Origin: Myxococcaceae bacterium
GTDB taxonomy: Bacteria; Myxococcota; Myxococcia; Myxococcales; Myxococcaceae
Assembly: GCA_016926755.1 (NCBI GenBank)
Contig: JAFGNZ010000289.1
Coordinates: 1 to 39,060 of the forward strand
Length of the DNA: 39,060 bases
Reading direction: 5' to 3'
Shown piece after piece: positions 3,499 to 13,052 of the stretch (position 1 is its first letter; each line of letters opens with the position of its first letter). Below the pieces are notes generated by a model. That model was not told the origin of the DNA and searched no databases. It saw nothing but the letters and a program-made list of their open reading frames with translations. Position numbers and translations under genes: made by a program.

Positions 3499-3655
3499 GC
3501 CAGGGGGCGAACCCTAGCCGAGGGGCGACGTACCGTCATCTACATGACGCACGGCGGCAATCCGGGCACGCAGACAAGGGGCTGACGGGCGGCAGGCGTG
3601 GTGTATGGTCCTCCCCCCTCCGCGGTGCCCTCCTGGCGGGTGCCCCAGGTGTCCC

Positions 3656-4681
3656 ATGCTCGTCCTGCGCGACGTCCAGAAGAGTGACCTCGCCGGCCTC
3701 AAGCGGCTCGCCGCCGTCCTCAACACCGTCAACCTGCCCAACAACGAGGAGACGCTCTCCGCCATCATCGACAAGTCGGTGCGGAGCTTCGCCGGCAAGC
3801 CGAAGAACCCGCTGGAGCGCGAGTACCTCTTCGTGCTCGAGGATCCGCGCAACCAGGCCATCATCGGCACGTCGATGATCATCGCCCAGCACGGCACGTA
3901 CGAGGCGCCTCACATCTACTACGAGGTCAGCGAGCGCGAGCATTACTCGGCCTCCATCAAGCAGCACCTGCGGCACAAGGTGCTCTCCATCGCCTACCAC
4001 TACGAGGGCCCCACGGAGGTGGGCGGGCTGGTGGTGGATCCGCCCTACCGCGCCACCCCGGACAAGCCGGGCAAGCAGCTGTCCTTCGTGCGCTTCCTCT
4101 TCATCGCCATGCACCGGCGCCTGTTCCGGCCCCGGGTGCTGGCGGAGCTGCTGCCGCCGCTGCTGCCGGATGGGCGCAGCCTGCTGTGGGAGGCGTGCGG
4201 CCGGAAGTTCACCGGCCTCACCTACCAGGAGGCGGACCGGCTCAGCCGGCAGAACAAGGAGTTCATCAAGGAGCTGTTCCCCGCCTCGGACATCTACGCC
4301 ACCCTCTTCCCCGCGCGGGTACAGAAGGTGCTGGGCGAGGTGGGCCCGCAGACGCGTGGCGTGCAGCGCATGCTGGAGCGCATCGGCTTCCGGTACGTGG
4401 AGCGCATCGATCCGTTCGACGGCGGGCCGCACTTCGAGGCCAACGTGGCGGACATCACCCTGGTGCGCCGCTACCGCACGGTGAAGCTCGCCGACGAGGA
4501 CTTCGAGCAGGAGGGCGATGAGCTGCTCGTCGCCTGCGAGCGCGAGTCGGGCCGCAACCGCTTCCGCGCCGTGCGTACCCAGGGGCGCGTGGAAGACCAG
4601 CTCCTCTACCTGCCCGCCCCCGCCAAGGAGGCGCTCGGCGTGGCCACCGGGGCGAAGCTGTCCCTCATCCCCTTCGAATAA
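3656..4681 (+). CDS. astA: Arginine N-succinyltransferase
   Basis: The 341-residue protein transfers succinyl from succinyl-CoA to L-arginine, the first step of the arginine succinyltransferase catabolic pathway. Recognisable family stretches are MLVLRDVQKSDLAGL at the N-terminus, FVLEDPRNQAIIGTSMI, GGLVVDPPYRATPDKPGKQL, ELLPPLLPDGRSLLWEACG and RMLERIGFRYVERIDPFDGG. Length is close to the roughly 340 residues of E. coli AstA. The frame is open from an earlier ATG at 3605, but those 17 extra residues are Pro/Cys-rich and unlike the family, so 3656 is chosen. No astB, astC, astD or astE gene is nearby, so the pathway is not completed here. It converges on the transglutaminase-like gene with a 10-bp gap. 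Confidence 0.93.
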   Translation: MLVLRDVQKSDLAGLKRLAAVLNTVNLPNNEETLSAIIDKSVRSFAGKPKNPLEREYLFVLEDPRNQAIIGTSMIIAQHGTYEAPHIYYEVSEREHYSASIKQHLRHKVLSIAYHYEGPTEVGGLVVDPPYRATPDKPGKQLSFVRFLFIAMHRRLFRPRVLAELLPPLLPDGRSLLWEACGRKFTGLTYQEADRLSRQNKEFIKELFPASDIYATLFPARVQKVLGEVGPQTRGVQRMLERIGFRYVERIDPFDGGPHFEANVADITLVRRYRTVKLADEDFEQEGDELLVACERESGRNRFRAVRTQGRVEDQLLYLPAPAKEALGVATGAKLSLIPFE

Positions 4682-4691
4682 GGGATGGCGC

Positions 4692-5789
4692 TCACGGCGC
4701 TCGCCGTACGACGCGGTGCCTCCCACGCAGCAGCTCCAGCCAGCGCTCGCCCGCCTGGTGGGGGGAGCCCCGGGAATCCACCAGCGCCAGGGGCAGGTGC
4801 GTCTCCGGGCGCACCGGATCCAGGGAGGTGGGATCCAGCTCCAGCACGCCCCCGCCCTTCAACGCCACGCGCACCCACGCGTGGGGGCGCGCGGGGCCCT
4901 CGTCCGCCGCGAGCAGGCCGTGCACCAGCGCCACCCGCTGGCCGAGCGCCGCCGCCTCCGCCGCGAAGCGCAGCGCGTGGGCCAGGCACCCTCCCGCCTC
5001 ACCCGCGCCCCCCTCGCGCCAGTCCGCCGCGCCCGGCCCCTTCTCCGGGAAGGCCGCATGCACCCGCGCCGCCAGGGCTCGCGCCGCGGCGGCCTCCCAC
5101 GGCGTCATCCCCTCCAGCCGCGCGGGCACCGGCCACGGCGGCTCGAACGCGAGCGCCCCCCGCGTGCCCTCCACGGGGACCCCCTGAGAGAAGAGCTCCG
5201 GCGGCGGGCGCAGCCGCTCCCCGGGCGCCGCCACGGTGAAGCGGGAGTCCCCCACCTCGAGCACCTCGAGCCGCCCGCCCGCGCCGTACCGGGCCCGAAA
5301 GGGTGTGCCCAGCAGCGAGCCCTCCACCTCGCGCCCCCGGACGGCCGTGACGCAGTGCGGCCCCTCGCGGCCCGTCAGCTCTTCACGCGCCGTCACACAG
5401 CCGGTGCGCGGCGGCCCCCGCCACAGCCACAGCGCCTGGGGCACGCTGCCCGAGCCCTCCACCCCCCCACGCGCATCCAGCTTCAGCTTCACCTCCCGTG
5501 TCAGCGCCCCCACCCGGCCCTCGCGCGTGTGCAGGTGGAGCGAGGCATAGGTGAAGCGCCCCGGCGCTCGCGTCAGCGTCACCATCCCCACCGGCACCCC
5601 CCGCCAGGCGAAGAGGTAACGGGCTGAGTCCTCTCCCCCCTGGGGCACGGAGGACCCGCCCCCCACCAGCCCTGTAGACGTAGCGGGTAGGACCAGGGCC
5701 AGGGCGGCGAGCAGGCCCCAGGAGGGGCCCGGGCGTGCACGGTTTTGAGGTACGGAGTGAAAAGGCAGGGTAGCGTCGCGGCTGCTCAT
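4692..5789 (-). CDS. Secreted transglutaminase-like (papain-fold) protein
   Basis: The 365-residue protein has a hydrophobic N-terminal segment (about residues 22-40, [17 protein letters not shown]) consistent with a signal peptide or anchor. An N-terminal beta-rich region (60-200) follows, then a transglutaminase-like core. The triad is visible: C268 in [14 protein letters not shown]303 in [10 protein letters not shown] and D319 in [10 protein letters not shown]. In bacteria such domains act as peptidases, amidases or cross-linkers in the envelope; the substrate is not evident. The first in-frame start inside the plausible range is ATG at 5789, which overlaps the divergent start of the next gene. 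No Shine-Dalgarno sequence precedes it. A further upstream GTG (5876) would run deep into the divergent gene and is rejected. Confidence 0.8.
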
Positions 5790-5790
5790 G
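5787..5790. promoter_or_regulatory. Overlapping divergent start codons (CATG)
   Basis: The palindrome CATG holds the predicted ATG of the plus-strand chemoreceptor-like gene (5788-5790) and the ATG of the minus-strand transglutaminase-like gene (5789-5787). Neither ATG has a convincing Shine-Dalgarno sequence. Each gene's promoter and any leader must therefore lie inside the other's coding sequence, unless transcripts are leaderless or a start is misplaced. Confidence 0.5.
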
Positions 5791-8700
5791 GGAGCCAAAC
5801 GGTACCTCTTCGGCTTTGGCCTCGTCGGGGGACTCGCGACCGCGCTGATCCTTGGCGGGCTGATGCGCGCGCTCACGGGAGAGCCGCGCTTCCTGGGCGG
5901 TTGGCTCCTGCTGCTCGTGGTGACGCCGCTGCTCTACCTGCTGGGTGGGTGGCTCACCTGGTTCGCCTGGGCCGGGCGGCGCGGGCGGACGCGCCGGCGC
6001 GTCATCACCCGGCTGGCCGAGGGAGATCTCTCCTTCTCCACGCGCGCCGAGTTCGAGGGGCGGGAGGACGTGCACCGCCTCATCGTGTCGCTGCGCCGGG
6101 CCATCTCCCAGGTGCAGCGGGTGACGGTGAACCTGCACCGCACCAGCACCAGCGTCTCCGAGCAGGCGCGCATGCTGCTGGAGGCCGCGCGGCGACAGGG
6201 CTCGGCGGTGGATCACTCGCTGACCGCGGTGGCCAGCATGGGCGAGAGCCTGAGCGCCACGGGCCAGCGCGTGGAGCAGATGGACAGCTTCGCCCACGAG
6301 ACGACGGACGCGCTGGTGGAGATGACGGAGCGGCTGCAGCAGGTGGGTCAGGCCCTCTCCATCCTGGACGAGTTCTCCCACCACACCAGCGAGCTGGTGC
6401 AGACCATGAGCGAGCGGCTGGCCCACATCGCCATGGCGGGCGACGAGCTGGCGCGCTTCGCCAACGAGGCGGAGAGCTTCGTCTCGCTGGTGAGCAACGG
6501 CATCGACGCCGTGCGCCGGCGCGCCAGCGAGACGAACCAGCTGGCCCTGGCGGTGACGGACACCGCCGAGCGCGGCGAGGAGCTGGTCAACGACAGCGTC
6601 AAGGGCATGTACCGCGTCGAGGAGACGGTGCGAAACGCCGCCGAGCTGGTGGACTCGCTCGGCGTGCGCTCGATGGCGATCGGCCGCATCGTGGACGTCA
6701 TCCAGGACATCGCGGATCAGACGAACCTGCTGGCGCTCAACGCCTCCATCATCGCCGCGCAGGCCGGCGAGCACGGGCGCCCCTTCGGCGTGGTGGCCAA
6801 CGAGATCCGCGGGCTGGCCGAGCGCACCGCGCGCTCCACGCGGGAGATCGCCTCCATGGTGACGAGCGTGCGCGAGGCGGTGGGCACCGCGGTGACGCTG
6901 GTGAAGGAGGGGCGGGAGCAGGCCACCGTGGGCGTGCAGCTGGGAGACAAGGCCGCGGCGGCGCTGGTGGAGATCCGCAACATCACCCAGCGCACCTTCG
7001 CGGCCGTGGAGTCCACGGTGGAGGAGACCAAGCGCCTGGAGCACCAGGGCTCCACGGTGTCGGAGGCCAGCCGCCGGGTGGCGCTCCAGGTGGACGACGT
7101 GACGCGGGCGGCCATCGAGCAGGTGGGGCAGGCGCGCGAGCTGGTGCGGCAGACGGGGGAGATGGCGCGGCTGGCGCGAGACGCCACGGACAAGGTGGAG
7201 GGCCAGGCCCGCACCGGCCACCAGCTCTCCGAGGCGGTGGTGCGGCTCACCGCGGCCATCGACGACATCCGCAAGGCTCACGGGGTGCTCACCCGCGGCG
7301 AGGGGGCCATCCGCGAGGAGGTCTCCCGCGTGCGCGAGGATGCCCGCCGCGTCATCCGCATCGGCGACGAGCTGAGCCGCACGGTGGATCAGCTCGGGCA
7401 CGAGACGGCGAGCCTGGAGTCGGAGGTGTTCCGCTTCCGCCTGCCCCGGCCGCGCCCCGGGGGCGAGCTGCGCGTCGGCATCCACCAGGCGGCGGCCCTG
7501 CGCTCGCGGCAGACGGTGGATCCCCTCTTCGCCGTGGAGAACCAGCTCTCGGAGCTGTGCGCGTGCGTCTTCTCCGGCCTGCTGCGGCTGGAGGATGGGG
7601 TGCTGGCGCCGGATCTGGCGGAGAACTGGGAGACGGACGCCTCGGCGCGCGTGTTCCGCTTCTTCCTGCGCCGCGGCGTCACCTTCCATGACGGCGCGAA
7701 GCTGACGGCGCACGACGTGAAGCGCCACTTCGAGCGGCTGCTCAACCCAGAGGTGCGCTCGCCGGACCGGACGCTGCTGGAGGACATCGCGGGCGTGCCC
7801 GACTACGTCAGCGGCACCGCGCGCGAGGTGAGCGGCATCAAGGTCATCGACGACACGACGCTGGAGATCCGGCTGAAGGAGCCCAAGGCCTTCTTCCTCC
7901 ACCTGCTGGCGCTGACGCCCACCACGATCGCCCGGGTGGATGCCACCGGGCAGCTGCTGGGCACCGGCCCCTACCGGCTGGAGCGCTTCGAGGCGGACCG
8001 CGTCGTCCTCGTCCGCAACGCCACCTACTTCCGCTCCGGGCAGCCCCTGCTGGACCGGCTCGAGTTCCGGCTGGTGGACTCGCGGCAGGCGGCGCTCGAG
8101 CAGCTCCAGGCGGGCCAGGTGGACTTCGTCTCCTTCCTCTACGCCCAGCAGGCGCAGTCCCCCGGCATGGAGATGTTCCAGGTCATCGCCAGCTCCACGC
8201 CCTCCACCGCCTTCGTGGGCCTCAACCTGCGTGAGCCCCTCTATGACGACGTGCGGGTGCGGCAGGCCATCCGGGCCGGGCTGGACGTCCCCAGCCTGGT
8301 GGAGCGGTTCCACCCAGGCGCGCGCGTGGCGCACACGCTCACCCCGCCGGAGCTGCTGCAGGACTCGGAGAGCGGCGCGATGGAGGGGCCGGACGTGGCG
8401 CGGGCCGAGCAGCTCTTGCGAGAGGCCGGCGTGCGCAAGGTGCCGCTGACGATCTACTACCCCGCGGGGCGCGACACCTCCGAGGAGGATCGGGTGCTGT
8501 TCCGGCCGCTCATCGAGGCGGGGCTGCTGGAGCTGCAGCACGTGGAGCTGCCCCCGCAGGACTACACGACGCGGCTGCGCGCCGGGCGCATCCCCGCCTT
8601 CCGGACGCTCTGGATCGCCGACTACCCGGATCCGGACAACTTCCTCTACTTCCTGCTGAACTCGAGCGCGCAGACCATCTACCCGCTCGGCTACAAGAAC

Positions 8701-8934
8701 CCGGAGCTGGACAAGCTGACGGCCGAGGCGCGCGCGTCCATTGATCCCGAGCTGCGCAACCAGCTCTACCGTCGCGCGGAGCACCTCTTCGAGCAGGACT
8801 GCCCGCTCATCCCCCTGTACCACGACCGCATCTACGCGGTCGCCACGCCCGCGGTGCAGGACCTGCGGCTGCACATGACGCCGCCCCAGGTGCGCTTCGA
8901 GGACCTCTGGGTGGACTCGGACTCGACGCCTTGA
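5788..8934 (+). CDS. Methyl-accepting signalling protein fused to a family-5 solute-binding domain
   Basis: The 1048-residue protein has two N-terminal membrane helices (about 8-28 and 37-60) joined by a short loop. A HAMP-like/linker region follows, then a long coiled coil with the chemoreceptor hairpin tip at about 300-350 ([40 protein letters not shown]). From about residue 558 to the end lies an SBP_bac_5 (OppA/DppA-like) domain: [50 protein letters not shown] and [11 protein letters not shown]. There is no membrane helix between the two domains, so both should be cytoplasmic; ordinary family-5 binding proteins are periplasmic. SgrR is a precedent for a cytoplasmic sensor using this fold. 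It likely reports a peptide-like or sugar-like ligand to a CheA/CheW array (inference). No che genes are adjacent. Confidence 0.9.
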
Positions 8935-8935
8935 A

Positions 8936-11080
8936 TCAGGGGCTCGCGCGCCGAGTCCCCTGGAGACCATGCCGCTGGGGCCAGCCCCGGGCCTCGGCGG
9001 TCCCCGCGGGCCCGAGCTCGAACGCCTCCAGCCGCCACGTGCCCTGCCGCTCGAGCACGACATAGAGGGTGCTCCCCACGTGCAGCGCGCCGGCGACGCG
9101 CGGCGTGTCCTCCAACGCGCAGATGGCGAGCCGCTCCCCCCGCGCGAAGAGCTGCACGTGGACCTTCGGCCCCCCATCCACCGCCACGTCGGTGAGCGTG
9201 CCCACCGCGCCCCCGCGCACCAGCGCGGCCTCGTAGAGCGTGCCCGGCGCGTCCACGGGGAGCACGGACACCTCCCAGCCGAGCTCCCCCGTCCGGGCAT
9301 CGAGGGCTCTCAGCACGAGCTGCTCCACCTCGGGCGTGCAGGGCGCGCCACCTGCGTCCGGGCACGCGCGCGCGAAGGCGTAGCCGACGTCATCCAGCAG
9401 CAGCGCCGGCTCGCCGAAGGGGACGAGGTGCTGCGCGCCTCCTTCCCAGGACACCCGCGCCAGGTTCCCTCCATCCGTGCTGGCGAAGCGCCGGGCTCCC
9501 GCGAAGAGCCGTCCTCCGGCCACCGCCAGCGACGCGCCCCCGTCCTCCTCCACGTCCACGAGGGGGATGGTGACGAAGCCGGTGCCCGCGTCCTCCGGCT
9601 CCGGCTCGGCGCGCGAGACGAGCCCGCCTCCCTCCGCGCACAGCAACACGGAGCCCTGTTCATCGAGCGCCACGCGAGCGCCCTCTCCGCCGAAGCCCTG
9701 CACCGAGCCACTCCTGAGGACTCCTCCGTCCGTGCCGCCGAGCACCATGAGCGTGGCGAGCGCCTCGGGAGTGCCTGCATCCTCGCCCCCATCGGGCGCG
9801 ACGCCGGCGTCTCCAGCGGCGCGCCACGACACGAGCGCCACCACATCCCCCTCCGTGGTCAGCGCCACGCGCCCCACGCCCGTCGAGGGCTCCAGCCCCG
9901 CATCGGGAGGGGCCTGCTCCGCCAGCGAGGCCAGCCACTGGAGTTCACCCGGGCTTGCGAGGGCATAGCTCTCCAGGGCCTGGGGCTCGCGCACCAGCAC
10001 GCCAGCGTCGGACACGGTCAGCAGCGAGCGCGGTCCACCATCGGGATACGGCGCCTCGAAGGCCAGGAGGCCGCTCTGGGTGAAGGCCACGAGCCGGCAG
10101 CCCGCGTCCTCCCCGCACACCGAGGTGTAGAGCGTCCCCTCGTGGAGGAGCAGCACCGGCCCCCCAGGCTCCGCCACGGGCACTCCGCCGAGCCGCTGAG
10201 AGAAGGTGTAGAGGAGGTCCCCCGCATCCGGGCGCACGCACTCGCCCTCCTTGCACTTGCCCTCCCCCTGGCACGGCGTGGCGGGAGCACACACGAAGTC
10301 CTCGGGCGTGGGCAGGGTGCGGCAGGTGCCGGAGATACACAGGTCGGCGGTCTTGCAGTCCACCGGTCCGCAGACGGTGAAGTCGGGGGCGTCCGCCTCG
10401 CCGCAGCCGCTCGAGCGCAGGCACACGCCGACGCGGCAGGGATTCGAGGGTCGGGGGCAAGCCACGGGGGTCCCCACACAGCCCTCCGTGAGCGAGCAGG
10501 AGTCCACCGTGCACGGGTTGTCGTCATCACACGTGCGCGGCGAGCCCTCACACACGCCCGCCTGGCAACGGCCTCGCTCCTGGCACTTGCTCTCGGGGAT
10601 GCAGCTCGTCCCGTCCGGCGCGAGCGACTCCACGCAGATGCCCGCATCCAGCACGAAGCGGGACTCGCGGCACTGGGGCGGGGGATCGCACACGGGGGGC
10701 CTCACACCTTCGCCCCGGAGCACCACGGTCTCGGTGCGGCGCCCGGAGCTGAGCTCCAGCGTCCCCTCCACCGGCTCGCTCCCCGCGGTGAAGGCGACCT
10801 CCAGCGTCGCGTTCCCTCCGCCCGGGACGGACACCGAGCCCTCCACCACGGAGAAGGGGCTCTCGGTGCTCGCCGTCACCGTCACTCCCGCGCGTCCGGT
10901 GCCCACCAGCGTCACCGTGCGGCGCGCCTGCTCGCCCTCCAGGACACGGCCGAAGTCCACCTCGGTCTCCTGGGGGCGGAAGTCCCCGCGCGCGCCGCCG
11001 GTCCCCGGATCATCACACCGGCAGGCACCGGCGAGCACGAGCGCCACGAGGAAAAGGAGCCAGGGCCGAGTGCGGAGCAT
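8936..11080 (-). CDS. Large secreted lipoprotein: ASH-like domain, Cys-rich region, propeller with DAG loops
   Basis: The 714-residue protein begins MLRTRPWLLFLVALVLAGAC, a lipoprotein signal with the lipidated Cys at about residue 20. Residues about 35-130 look like an ASH/choice-of-anchor-D immunoglobulin-like domain (VDFGRVLEGEQARRTVTL). Residues about 130-285 hold more than 20 Cys in CxxxxxC-type spacing, probably disulfide-bonded modules. The remainder resembles a PQQ-type beta-propeller (ALDARTGELGWEV) studded with a dozen or so PDAG, EDAG or DGG loops. Myxobacterial surface lipoproteins often show this DAG pattern. The function is unknown; a surface adhesin or scaffold is plausible. 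The stop codon is 1 bp from the convergent chemoreceptor-like gene's stop. Confidence 0.78.
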   Translation of the reverse strand: MLRTRPWLLFLVALVLAGACRCDDPGTGGARGDFRPQETEVDFGRVLEGEQARRTVTLVGTGRAGVTVTASTESPFSVVEGSVSVPGGGNATLEVAFTAGSEPVEGTLELSSGRRTETVVLRGEGVRPPVCDPPPQCRESRFVLDAGICVESLAPDGTSCIPESKCQERGRCQAGVCEGSPRTCDDDNPCTVDSCSLTEGCVGTPVACPRPSNPCRVGVCLRSSGCGEADAPDFTVCGPVDCKTADLCISGTCRTLPTPEDFVCAPATPCQGEGKCKEGECVRPDAGDLLYTFSQRLGGVPVAEPGGPVLLLHEGTLYTSVCGEDAGCRLVAFTQSGLLAFEAPYPDGGPRSLLTVSDAGVLVREPQALESYALASPGELQWLASLAEQAPPDAGLEPSTGVGRVALTTEGDVVALVSWRAAGDAGVAPDGGEDAGTPEALATLMVLGGTDGGVLRSGSVQGFGGEGARVALDEQGSVLLCAEGGGLVSRAEPEPEDAGTGFVTIPLVDVEEDGGASLAVAGGRLFAGARRFASTDGGNLARVSWEGGAQHLVPFGEPALLLDDVGYAFARACPDAGGAPCTPEVEQLVLRALDARTGELGWEVSVLPVDAPGTLYEAALVRGGAVGTLTDVAVDGGPKVHVQLFARGERLAICALEDTPRVAGALHVGSTLYVVLERQGTWRLEAFELGPAGTAEARGWPQRHGLQGTRRASP

Positions 11081-11203
11081 GAGCCGGACTTAACCAGCTT
11101 CGGGTGGGAGTCAGAAGACTCTTCCAGCGCGGGGTTGGATAGACTCCAGTACGCAATGGAGCCACTCCCGCTCACCTGGCTCCGAATGGCCCGTGTCCCA
11201 GAG

Positions 11204-11216
11204 GGAGGTTGAGGTG
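11204..11216 (+). promoter_or_regulatory. Ribosome-binding site deciding the GTG start of the first protease-like gene
   Basis: GGAGG at 11204-11208 lies 5 bp before GTG at 11214-11216. A frame-compatible GTG at 11193 has no such site and would add seven polar residues before the signal peptide. The later GTG is therefore preferred. Confidence 0.65.
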
Positions 11217-12212
11217 CGCTGTCCGCTGGCTCCCATTGGAGTGATCTTCCTGTACGCAGCCGGAGTGTCCCTGGCGGGGGGATGCAAGCAGAACAGCACG
11301 GATGCTCCAGCACACGCTCCACCCCCAAGCTCTTCGCATCACGCGGATCCAACCGACAGCGGTGCACTTCCAGAGGGCAGGGTGCCCGCCATTGCCGACA
11401 GATTCAGTGGCGGGCCGGCGGCAGGAACGATGGACATCAGCAACCGGTACGCCTCCACGGTCATGCTCACGGCGGATGGCGAGCGGGTCCATGCGAGCTG
11501 CAGTGGTATCCTCCTGAGCCGGCGGGTGGCCCTGACGGCAGCCAGCTGTGTGTGCCCACCGCGGCAAGCCACGGCGCATGGCGCTCCTGACAAGGGCCCC
11601 ATTGGCCCCTCCGCCTGTGCTGAGCGTGCGTTCATTCGGACGGTTCGCTATGGCCTGGTGAAGTACCCTGAGCTCAAGGAAGAGTCGGCGGCGAAGACCT
11701 TCCGAGGGTTCACGGGCGAGGTCCGAGTTCATCCTGCTTTCAAGCTTGAACTCGATGATCAGGGCAGCGTGCTGGCCACCCATGCTGACCTCGCCATCAT
11801 CGTCCTGGATACCCCTGTGCAGGATGAACTGCCGCACGTGTCACTCTCCGAGACCGAGGTTCAGGAGAATGAGGCCCTCGTCATGGTGGGCTATGGCGAC
11901 GATCCGCGCTTCCGAGGCGTCCCCGGGATCCGCTATTTCAGGCACAACAAAGTCACCCAGCTTCACGGAGCCGCGGATGGGAGGGTCCTTTATGAGCAGC
12001 AAGGCGCCTTCGTCTACAATGGGTATGCGGGCGGCCCCTGCTTTCGGGAAGACGAGACCCACCAGTGGCTGGTTGGAATCGCGAGCGTTGGCTCTGACCA
12101 GGAGTTGGCCTTCACCAGCACGTACTTCTTCAGGGACTGGCTACGCGCCGAACTCCAACGCGCGGCAGAATGGGACTCCAGCTCGGCACCTGCATCCAAG
12201 GGGCCTCGGTGA
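11214..12212 (+). CDS. Trypsin-fold lipoprotein lacking catalytic His and Ser (probable pseudoprotease)
   Basis: The 332-residue protein has a lipoprotein-type signal (VSLAGGC, Cys24) and a chymotrypsin/trypsin fold. The conserved landmarks are present but altered. Where trypsins have TAAHC this protein reads LTAASCVC (Ser111 in place of His). The Asp region is intact (HADLAIIVLD, Asp192). Where trypsins have GDSGGP it reads GYAGGPC (Tyr271-Ala272 for Asp-Ser). The substitutions were confirmed in the DNA: GCC AGC TGT and GGG TAT GCG GGC. It should be catalytically dead but able to bind substrate or a partner. It lies 6 bp upstream of an intact paralogue, so the two are probably co-transcribed. 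Base composition is visibly less G+C-rich than the flanking genes. Inactivity is inferred from residues. Confidence 0.85.
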   Translation: MRCPLAPIGVIFLYAAGVSLAGGCKQNSTDAPAHAPPPSSSHHADPTDSGALPEGRVPAIADRFSGGPAAGTMDISNRYASTVMLTADGERVHASCSGILLSRRVALTAASCVCPPRQATAHGAPDKGPIGPSACAERAFIRTVRYGLVKYPELKEESAAKTFRGFTGEVRVHPAFKLELDDQGSVLATHADLAIIVLDTPVQDELPHVSLSETEVQENEALVMVGYGDDPRFRGVPGIRYFRHNKVTQLHGAADGRVLYEQQGAFVYNGYAGGPCFREDETHQWLVGIASVGSDQELAFTSTYFFRDWLRAELQRAAEWDSSSAPASKGPR

Positions 12213-12218
12213 GAATTC

Positions 12219-13052
12219 ATGCGCGCTCAACTGAATAGCACCTTGAAGTCCCTCTTGGCCGCTCTCGTGGTTGTTGAGGGTGCGTGTGCATCAACTCCCG
12301 ATTCTCACTTTTCCGTTGCGAGAGGCATGAACGATTACGCCAACCGCTATCGGTCAACCGTCCTCGTGGCGACGCCCGCAGGCAGCTGCAGTGGTGTTCT
12401 CATTGCTCCGCGCCTGGTGCTCTCCTCAGCGCACTGCTTCTGCCTGCCAATGGATTTTGAGGCCCGAACCGGAACCAACGTCTATACGAATGCGAAGTGC
12501 GAGAAGCAGGCACTCGTTTGGGCCTATCGCTATCAGCAAGAGAACGGAGTGTGGGTGGACGTTCCGGACTTCTCCAAGGGCACCGTCATCGCGCACGAGA
12601 GCTTCAAGTCAGAGATCCAGGATGGGAAGGTCAAGAGCCACTTTGCGGACCTCGCCGTCATTCGGCTGGACGGGGCGATGGCGGGGGTCAATCCCGACGG
12701 CAACATGCCTGAGGTCGAGGTCAAGCCCAATGAGCAGTTGGTCGTGGTGGGGTACGGACCGAGCGTACAAGACGGCGCCGATCCCGGTGTGCGGCGCTTC
12801 GGCAGAAATCTGGTGACGGAAGTCATCACGACGCGCGAGACCAAGGAGTTCCGGTTCAGTATGGGCGGGGTCCACGTCGTAGCGGGCGACAGCGGCGGCC
12901 CCTGCTTCCGCGAAACGGCGGAGGGGCGTTGGCTCGTCGGCATCAGCGGGGGTTGGACCAAAGCCAGTGGAGGCCACGAGTCTTGGTTCACAAGCATCTT
13001 CTATTTCCGAGACTGGATTGAGCGCCAGAAGCGGGATCCAAGCGTCAACTGA
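12219..13052 (+). CDS. Secreted trypsin-like serine protease (intact triad)
   Basis: The 277-residue protein has an N-terminal signal (residues about 8-24, SLLAALVVVEGACAS). The trailing GAC could be a weak lipobox or a signal peptidase I site. The S1 family triad is complete: His72 in LSSAHCFC, Asp144 in HFADLAVIRL and Ser225 in VAGDSGGPCF. It shares RGMNDYANRYRSTV and FYFRDWIE with the preceding protein (there MDISNRYASTV and YFFRDWL), showing a tandem duplication. Its role is presumably extracytoplasmic proteolysis, either predatory or processing; no substrate can be inferred. The start ATG at 12219 is 6 bp after the upstream stop, suggesting an operon. It is the active member of the pair. 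Confidence 0.9.
   Translation: MRAQLNSTLKSLLAALVVVEGACASTPDSHFSVARGMNDYANRYRSTVLVATPAGSCSGVLIAPRLVLSSAHCFCLPMDFEARTGTNVYTNAKCEKQALVWAYRYQQENGVWVDVPDFSKGTVIAHESFKSEIQDGKVKSHFADLAVIRLDGAMAGVNPDGNMPEVEVKPNEQLVVVGYGPSVQDGADPGVRRFGRNLVTEVITTRETKEFRFSMGGVHVVAGDSGGPCFRETAEGRWLVGISGGWTKASGGHESWFTSIFYFRDWIERQKRDPSVN

Follow-up and report, generated by a model that had tools for sequence, protein, structure and literature searches.

A McpK-like chemoreceptor with a predicted cytoplasmic OppA-like binding domain belongs to a fused receptor class found in three bacterial phyla

OppA and DppA, peptide binders of the SBP_bac_5 family of solute-binding proteins (SBPs), are exported transport proteins, and SgrR uses an SBP_bac_5-type domain as an intracellular sensor, probably of a cytoplasmic metabolite in sugar-phosphate stress. 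Here we analyse a gene in a window of 39,060 nucleotides, the whole of contig JAFGNZ010000289.1 from a Myxococcaceae bacterium, in which such a domain follows the signalling domain of a methyl-accepting chemotaxis protein (MCP). MCPs stimulated by periplasmic SBPs, for example for maltose or autoinducer-2 (AI-2), appear among the reference titles in PMC9602780, and the chemoreceptor TlpD of Helicobacter pylori is described in the available part of PMC13001251 as having a cytoplasmic C-terminal sensing domain. The closest described protein is McpK of Myxococcus xanthus (MXAN_6456), for which the accessible part of Moine et al. 2014 (PMC3945109) gives 1048 amino acids, an MCP domain at residues 246-463, a solute-binding domain and no HAMP domain. 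The same source treats McpK as an orphan receptor of class 44H, shared with DifA, and its authors suggest signalling to Dif; McpK figures in neither of two lists in that text, one of mutants without defects and one of S-motility mutants, and the accessible part takes up neither the ligand of its SBP domain nor the side of the membrane on which that domain lies (PMC3945109).

The receptor in the window matches Pfam MCPsignal (PF00015) at residues 252-429 (E 5.7e-32, 111.4 bits against a curated cut-off of 34.6) and SBP_bac_5 (PF00496) at residues 607-961 (E 2.2e-67, 228.2 bits, profile positions 3-365 of 368). A Pfam scan of all 1048 residues returned no HAMP match and no SgrR-type DNA-binding N-terminal domain. 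This is the arrangement described in the initial annotation, namely a pair of N-terminal membrane segments, an MCP hairpin and a complete SBP_bac_5 domain, with no span between the last two. With McpK the receptor shares its length, an MCP and a solute-binding domain, the lack of HAMP and the orphan position of its gene (PMC3945109). The length, the domain order and the presence across the family all agree, and the receptor is almost surely the orthologue of M. xanthus McpK, a conclusion drawn from architecture and length. The initial annotation had overlooked that the receptor was already tabulated as McpK and that its architecture extends to other phyla.

SgrR is a DNA-binding regulator, whereas the protein considered here is a chemoreceptor in which OppA-type models score better. 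OppA and DppA share with it the fold family and the aspartate for the peptide N-terminus, but here the SBP domain is fused, lacks an export signal and has no second SBP_bac_5 gene beside it on the contig. In the maltose and AI-2 type of sensing, separate proteins meet outside the membrane, while here SBP and receptor form one polypeptide, predicted to be intracellular in both parts. TlpD is soluble and carries a zinc-binding CZB domain (PMC13001251), in contrast to the membrane hairpin and SBP domain of this receptor. Already known, as far as the accessible parts of these papers go, are the component domains, the C-terminal cytoplasmic sensor (TlpD, PMC13001251) and McpK as a tabulated orphan (PMC3945109). 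The literature search, which left most subscription papers outside its reach, found no earlier description of an MCP whose SBP domain is cytoplasmic; nor did the literature searched yield the three-phylum class, the cytoplasmic side, the conserved peptide-amine aspartate or the fixed arm length.

Using the receptor as query, matches at E<=1e-100 were obtained in 91 of 195 Myxococcota genomes, and 85 of these contain one match across both domains, so that the Myxococcota search for the combined MCP and SBP_bac_5 architecture suggested in the initial annotation found it in these genomes. The other six genomes have partial or split matches only, several of them at contig starts or ends. The window's own family (f1) accounts for most matches (88 of 96 genomes), with one more in each of the families f2, f9 and f10. 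Four large genomes of one genus (G102, G103, G104 and G105 of g8; L066 is one copy) have two receptor-matching places each, both of which are partial in G104 (query 291 onward). Conservation at the codon level points the same way, with dN/dS (the ratio of nonsynonymous to synonymous substitution rates) in seven orthologue pairs at 0.06-0.37 for the SBP part and 0.00-0.32 for the MCP part. Because one match spans both domains in 85 of 195 genomes and the SBP part has such dN/dS values, the fusion is not a product of chance or of a misread frame; an artefact of frame or assembly is ruled out by the single frame across the family and by purifying selection.

Fused proteins were likewise found in Acidobacteriota, where 53 of 396 genomes match at 1e-40, 29 of them with one match over both domains, and in Clostridia. 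The clostridial query, the Caloramator protein L117, came from a genome scan with two short peptide patterns around the signalling tip, in which the matches listed were mostly ordinary MCPs. Within its order it matches 49 of 225 genomes at 1e-60 (45 covering both domains in one match, four partial or broken) and nine genomes in a sample of 341 from its class at 1e-75, the latter overlapping in part with the order-level genomes. Both domains are Pfam-confirmed in L232, L238, L117 and L219. The fused MCP-SBP receptor class spans three phyla: Myxococcota, Acidobacteriota and that of the Clostridia. Two further phyla were sampled with two candidates scored per genome, a scope that does not prove absence, and no fusion was seen: 345 genomes of the phylum of Geobacteraceae gave one match at 1e-55 (query 30-612, 13 internal stops), and in the phylum of Thermosporothrix 86 of 350 genomes match, with the SBP half only among the rows listed. 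Eight single genomes outside the three groups gave no match at 1e-45. In the acidobacterial seed genome G196, the MCP and SBP halves of L119 (3137-6270) lie in different frames, which indicates a frameshift or an assembly error.

Membrane topology was assessed from Kyte-Doolittle (KD) hydrophobicity in 19-residue windows, and an export-type segment was defined as 12 residues of KD >=2.0 ahead of the SBP domain. The Myxococcota set comprised 55 proteins from 66 loci, after removal of L010, which has a misread start, and of ten loci representing the same gene a second time. In the receptor, residues 7-25 and 35-53 reach KD 1.98 and 2.09, and no membrane span follows past residue 90, where the maximum is 1.29. 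A membrane helix at residues 400-560, which the initial annotation had named as the finding that would speak against a cytoplasmic sensor, was looked for by the same measure, and since nothing exceeds 1.29 after residue 90, none is there. The N-terminal pair passes a KD cut-off of 1.6 in 27 of the 55 Myxococcota proteins, and relaxing the cut-off to 1.4 or 1.2 raises this number to 49 or 55. Basic residues follow the second segment in the 27 that pass 1.6. Clostridial fused proteins have no membrane segment (0/20 with any 19-residue window of KD >=1.6). The pair is also missing from four of 20 acidobacterial proteins (L228, L232, L235 and L238; N-terminal maxima 0.44-1.24 in the stop-to-stop frame), the remaining 16 having N-terminal values of 2.16 or higher. 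None of 96 fused proteins has an export-type segment ahead of the SBP domain (maximum 1.58), versus 19 of 20 SBPs collected as stand-alone; the twentieth, L256, is a fragment of a fused gene cut off by a contig end and falls in the fused clade, so that all 19 true stand-alone proteins have the segment.

The cytoplasmic location of the SBP domain, which the initial annotation had supposed, is well supported by the topology, by fused relatives that lack membrane segments and by the export-type segments seen in stand-alone SBPs but not in fused ones. Export of the domain through a third membrane segment, at residues 353-371 or elsewhere, could draw on the TMHMM count of three transmembrane (TM) segments for M. 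xanthus McpK (PMC3945109) and on six of 55 Myxococcota orthologues in which a later segment reaches at least KD 1.6, always within residues 353-372, in the MCP hairpin past the tip. This stretch is probably the third TM helix of the published count. Yet residues 353-371 lie inside the MCP hairpin just beyond the tip and reach only 1.29 in this receptor, and relatives without the membrane hairpin fall in the same SBP clade; we therefore consider an exported SBP domain highly improbable. We reject a periplasmic SBP on account of the relatives without membrane segments and the absence of any later span in the receptor.

The C-terminal half has peptide binders as its nearest solved relatives, 8upi at E 2.9e-45 followed by OppA chains at 2.4e-38 to 4.4e-36. 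Among NCBIfam models, those of OppA type score E 7e-36 and 8.4e-34 versus 2.2e-9 for SgrR, and the comparison with SgrR made in the initial annotation holds as an analogy for intracellular sensing and not as a statement of closeness. A HMMER alignment places Asp945 opposite residue 419 of 1b05, an OppA chain, and the accessible part of a paper on Borrelia OppA describes Asp419 as forming a hydrogen bond with the N-terminal amine of the peptide (PMC5736914). The equivalent residue is aspartate in 95 of 96 fused proteins (55 of 56 from Myxococcota, with asparagine once, and all 20 from both Acidobacteriota and Clostridia). The same topology could also serve a non-peptide ligand, some other cytoplasmic metabolite, with the conserved aspartate holding another group: SBP_bac_5 relatives of known structure bind haem, nickel, agrocinopine and dipeptides, and the contig has no second SBP_bac_5 gene. 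Set against this are the identity of the best solved relatives, which are oligopeptide binders, and the near-invariance of the Asp419 equivalent among the fused proteins, and we hold this alternative to be unlikely, though it keeps a real share of our expectation.

Trees for the two domains were quick searches without bootstrap. The 55 rows of the SBP tree comprised 14 of the 56 fused domains from Myxococcota, 10 of the 20 from Clostridia, 11 from Acidobacteriota and 20 stand-alone SBPs. The MCP trees excluded nine receptor rows shorter than 200 residues, and the MCP tree used for topology tests had 64 rows. In the SBP tree, the fused domains of Myxococcota and Acidobacteriota lie on one side of a branch with a Shimodaira-Hasegawa-like approximate likelihood ratio (SH-aLRT) of 99, and the clostridial domains fall in another part of the tree, where support is weak. 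The SBP tree does not reject a single clade uniting every fused row (approximately unbiased (AU) test, p 0.432), and the MCP tree rejects it (AU p 0.012); in MCP trees the link between the fused MCP domains of Myxococcota and Acidobacteriota reaches only 86. The printed tips of fused proteins have the canonical E and R in Clostridia, and I or L together with Q in Myxococcota and Acidobacteriota. At least two independent fusions are favoured, though not proven, because the MCP tree rejects a single fused clade and the SBP tree does not.

The spacing between the signalling tip and the SBP domain is invariant within each group. From the residue after the tip LALN to the F of an F.LP motif before the SBP domain there are 231 residues, or 33 heptads, in 55/55 proteins from Myxococcota and 20/20 from Acidobacteriota (19 counted directly and L229 by inspection), and in the clostridial family the distance from the tip to the SBP domain's first DP motif is 180 residues in 20/20. 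The length of the C-terminal arm (C-arm) is thus kept exactly although the proteins are only about 30% identical. The N-terminal arm (N-arm), counted from a GDL motif, has 240 residues in 43 of 55 Myxococcota proteins, similar to the C-arm, and by this geometry the SBP domain should adjoin the membrane. A fixed coiled-coil spacing would suit a scaffold as well, that is, an SBP domain that binds nothing and acts as a structural or docking module for spacing or anchoring receptors. Such a module has little to recommend it, however, given that the ligand-site aspartate is kept in two apparently separate fusions, that the SBP part is under purifying selection and that the domain matches its model almost end to end.

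We consider it probable that the protein is a receptor for an intracellular peptide-like ligand, with an OppA-like cytoplasmic sensor, a hairpin anchor in the inner membrane and output through a CheA. The short hairpin would anchor the chemoreceptor in the inner membrane with essentially no periplasmic part, and the C-terminal, cytoplasmic OppA-like domain would be the sensor. From the membrane, a long antiparallel coiled coil would run to the tip that binds CheA and CheW and back again, placing the binding domain beside the membrane. The ligand would be intracellular, with a peptide or some other molecule bearing a free amino group as the likeliest candidate, and its binding would close the two lobes; this movement could pass through the fixed-length C-arm to the tip and change the activity of a CheA. 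Computed support covers the architecture, the cytoplasmic side, the conserved ligand-binding aspartate, the fixed spacing and the purifying selection, while lobe closure as the signal, a peptide as the ligand, coupling to CheA and the position beside the membrane are steps that we infer.

Several observations weigh against this interpretation. The receptor has I and Q at the tip where the canonical pair E and R (E385 and R388 in Tsr) is expected. The canonical methylation motif has no match in the receptor, nor in 28 of 55 orthologues, so that of the term methyl-accepting used in the initial annotation the MCP hairpin stands and the methylation consensus does not. With a noncanonical tip and no methylation motif, the receptor may adapt unlike a textbook receptor. 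Aspartate at the OppA 419 position also occurs in 11 of the 20 proteins of the stand-alone set (L256 among the 11; three others have a gap there), which argues for a working peptide-type pocket and not for any one particular ligand. An AlphaFold model of the SBP domain, made from four sequences, has a mean predicted local distance difference test score (pLDDT) of 42.9. As to topology, a single KD window of 1.67-1.69 lies inside the SBP domain of L228 and L232, L238 reaches 1.24 near its N-terminus, and the three TM segments counted for McpK, if read literally, would put the SBP domain outside (PMC3945109).

The unusual tip is not confined to this receptor. The IIAAQAGE variant is common to the receptor and L067 only among the 24 receptor tips in this genome, a set in which contig ends may have split some genes into two halves. 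In the genome scan, the I/Q variant was counted in 15 of the 80 loci listed and the canonical form in 58; the records with IIAAQAGE-like tips (L074 and L067 among them) are titled Myxococcota, Deltaproteobacteria, Desulfuromonadales, Acidobacteria and Nitrospirae. Methylation-motif matches are also absent from eight of the 11 further receptor frames in this genome, three of the eight being partial.

As to the signalling partner, the McpK paper proposes Dif (PMC3945109), whereas our tree does not support kinship of the receptor with the DifA-like receptor of this genome: a clade of the fused Myxococcota MCP domains with L068 is rejected (AU p 0.006). For L068 (DifA-like, long-branched) and L067 (McpJ-like) the likeness is one of architecture only. 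Of the plain receptors in this genome, L067 alone falls inside a 28-row set with the fused MCP domains of Myxococcota and Acidobacteriota; the tree with this set lacked the window's own MCP row, dropped as a duplicate, which is present in the AU-tested tree. The receptor, L067 and L068 align nearly gap-free over the hairpin, and length class therefore does not single out Dif in this genome. The Dif partnership as proposed for McpK is not supported.

A wider reading, which we put forward tentatively and with less than even confidence, is that these proteins form a multi-phylum chemoreceptor class for intracellular peptides, in which a binding protein was internalised and fused at least twice, with the spacing fixed and the aspartate kept, so that products of proteolysis, imported prey peptides or starvation products could steer a chemosensory system from within. 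The signal sensed by cytoplasmic chemoreceptors is often unknown; here the sensor comes from a well understood family, and ligands could be screened directly with the soluble domain. Were the ligand a peptide, bacteria could follow their internal peptide pools through a chemosensory system, and in myxobacteria this would bear on predation and on starvation-induced development. The 33-heptad arm and the second, clostridial version offer built-in tests of the way in which a C-terminal sensor drives its receptor.

The gene annotation of the contig reaches about 18 kb. Co-localisation with a CheA/CheW cluster, suggested as a check in the initial annotation, was not borne out: the contig has no CheW-domain gene, no further MCP and no second SBP_bac_5 gene. 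The coordinates of the receptor, its parts and its neighbours are collected below.

Table 1. Coordinates of the receptor, its parts and neighbouring genes in the window.
Feature	Position	Strand	Basis or remark
AstA	3605-4681	+	Annotated neighbour
Weakly transglutaminase-like gene (below Pfam cut-off), divergent from mcpK	4692..5876	-	Homologue in 11/15 neighbourhoods; context only
mcpK orthologue: MCP signalling domain and C-terminal SBP_bac_5 domain	5788..8934	+	ATG start, 1048 aa; Pfam, family matches
N-terminal membrane hairpin, residues 7-25 and 35-53, nine-residue gap	5806..5946	+	Hydrophobicity; both termini predicted inside (positive-inside rule)
'GDL' stretch resembling HAMP, with the N-arm of the long coiled coil (residues 63-240)	5974..6507	+	HAMP-like is our reading
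MCP signalling hairpin PF00015, residues 252-429, tip with I and Q at E/R positions	6541..7074	+	Pfam, tip alignment
Coiled-coil C-arm, residues 430-545	7075..7422	+	Tip-to-SBP spacing constant across family
OppA-like SBP_bac_5 domain, residues 546-1040; PF00496 core 607-961	7423..8907	+	Pfam, HMMER alignment
Asp945 codon, position of OppA Asp419 (peptide N-terminus holder)	8620..8622	+	Alignment
Large gene	8936-11080	-	Annotated neighbour
Two adjacent trypsin-like genes	11193-13052	+	No match in 15 neighbourhoods compared; perhaps local insertion

Further annotated neighbours are a VTT-domain gene, a radical-SAM gene, a sigma factor and a glucanotransferase. The listed GTG start of the transglutaminase-like gene overlaps mcpK, and its true start probably lies further in. 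Around the clostridial receptors, where gene families were grouped by BLAST and carry no Pfam names, no family apart from the receptor's own is common to more than four of 11 neighbourhoods; further members of the receptor's BLAST cluster occur in L261, L262 and L268, and in L266 two fused receptors lie in tandem on the minus strand (6293-8779 and 9195-11648), likely through duplication.

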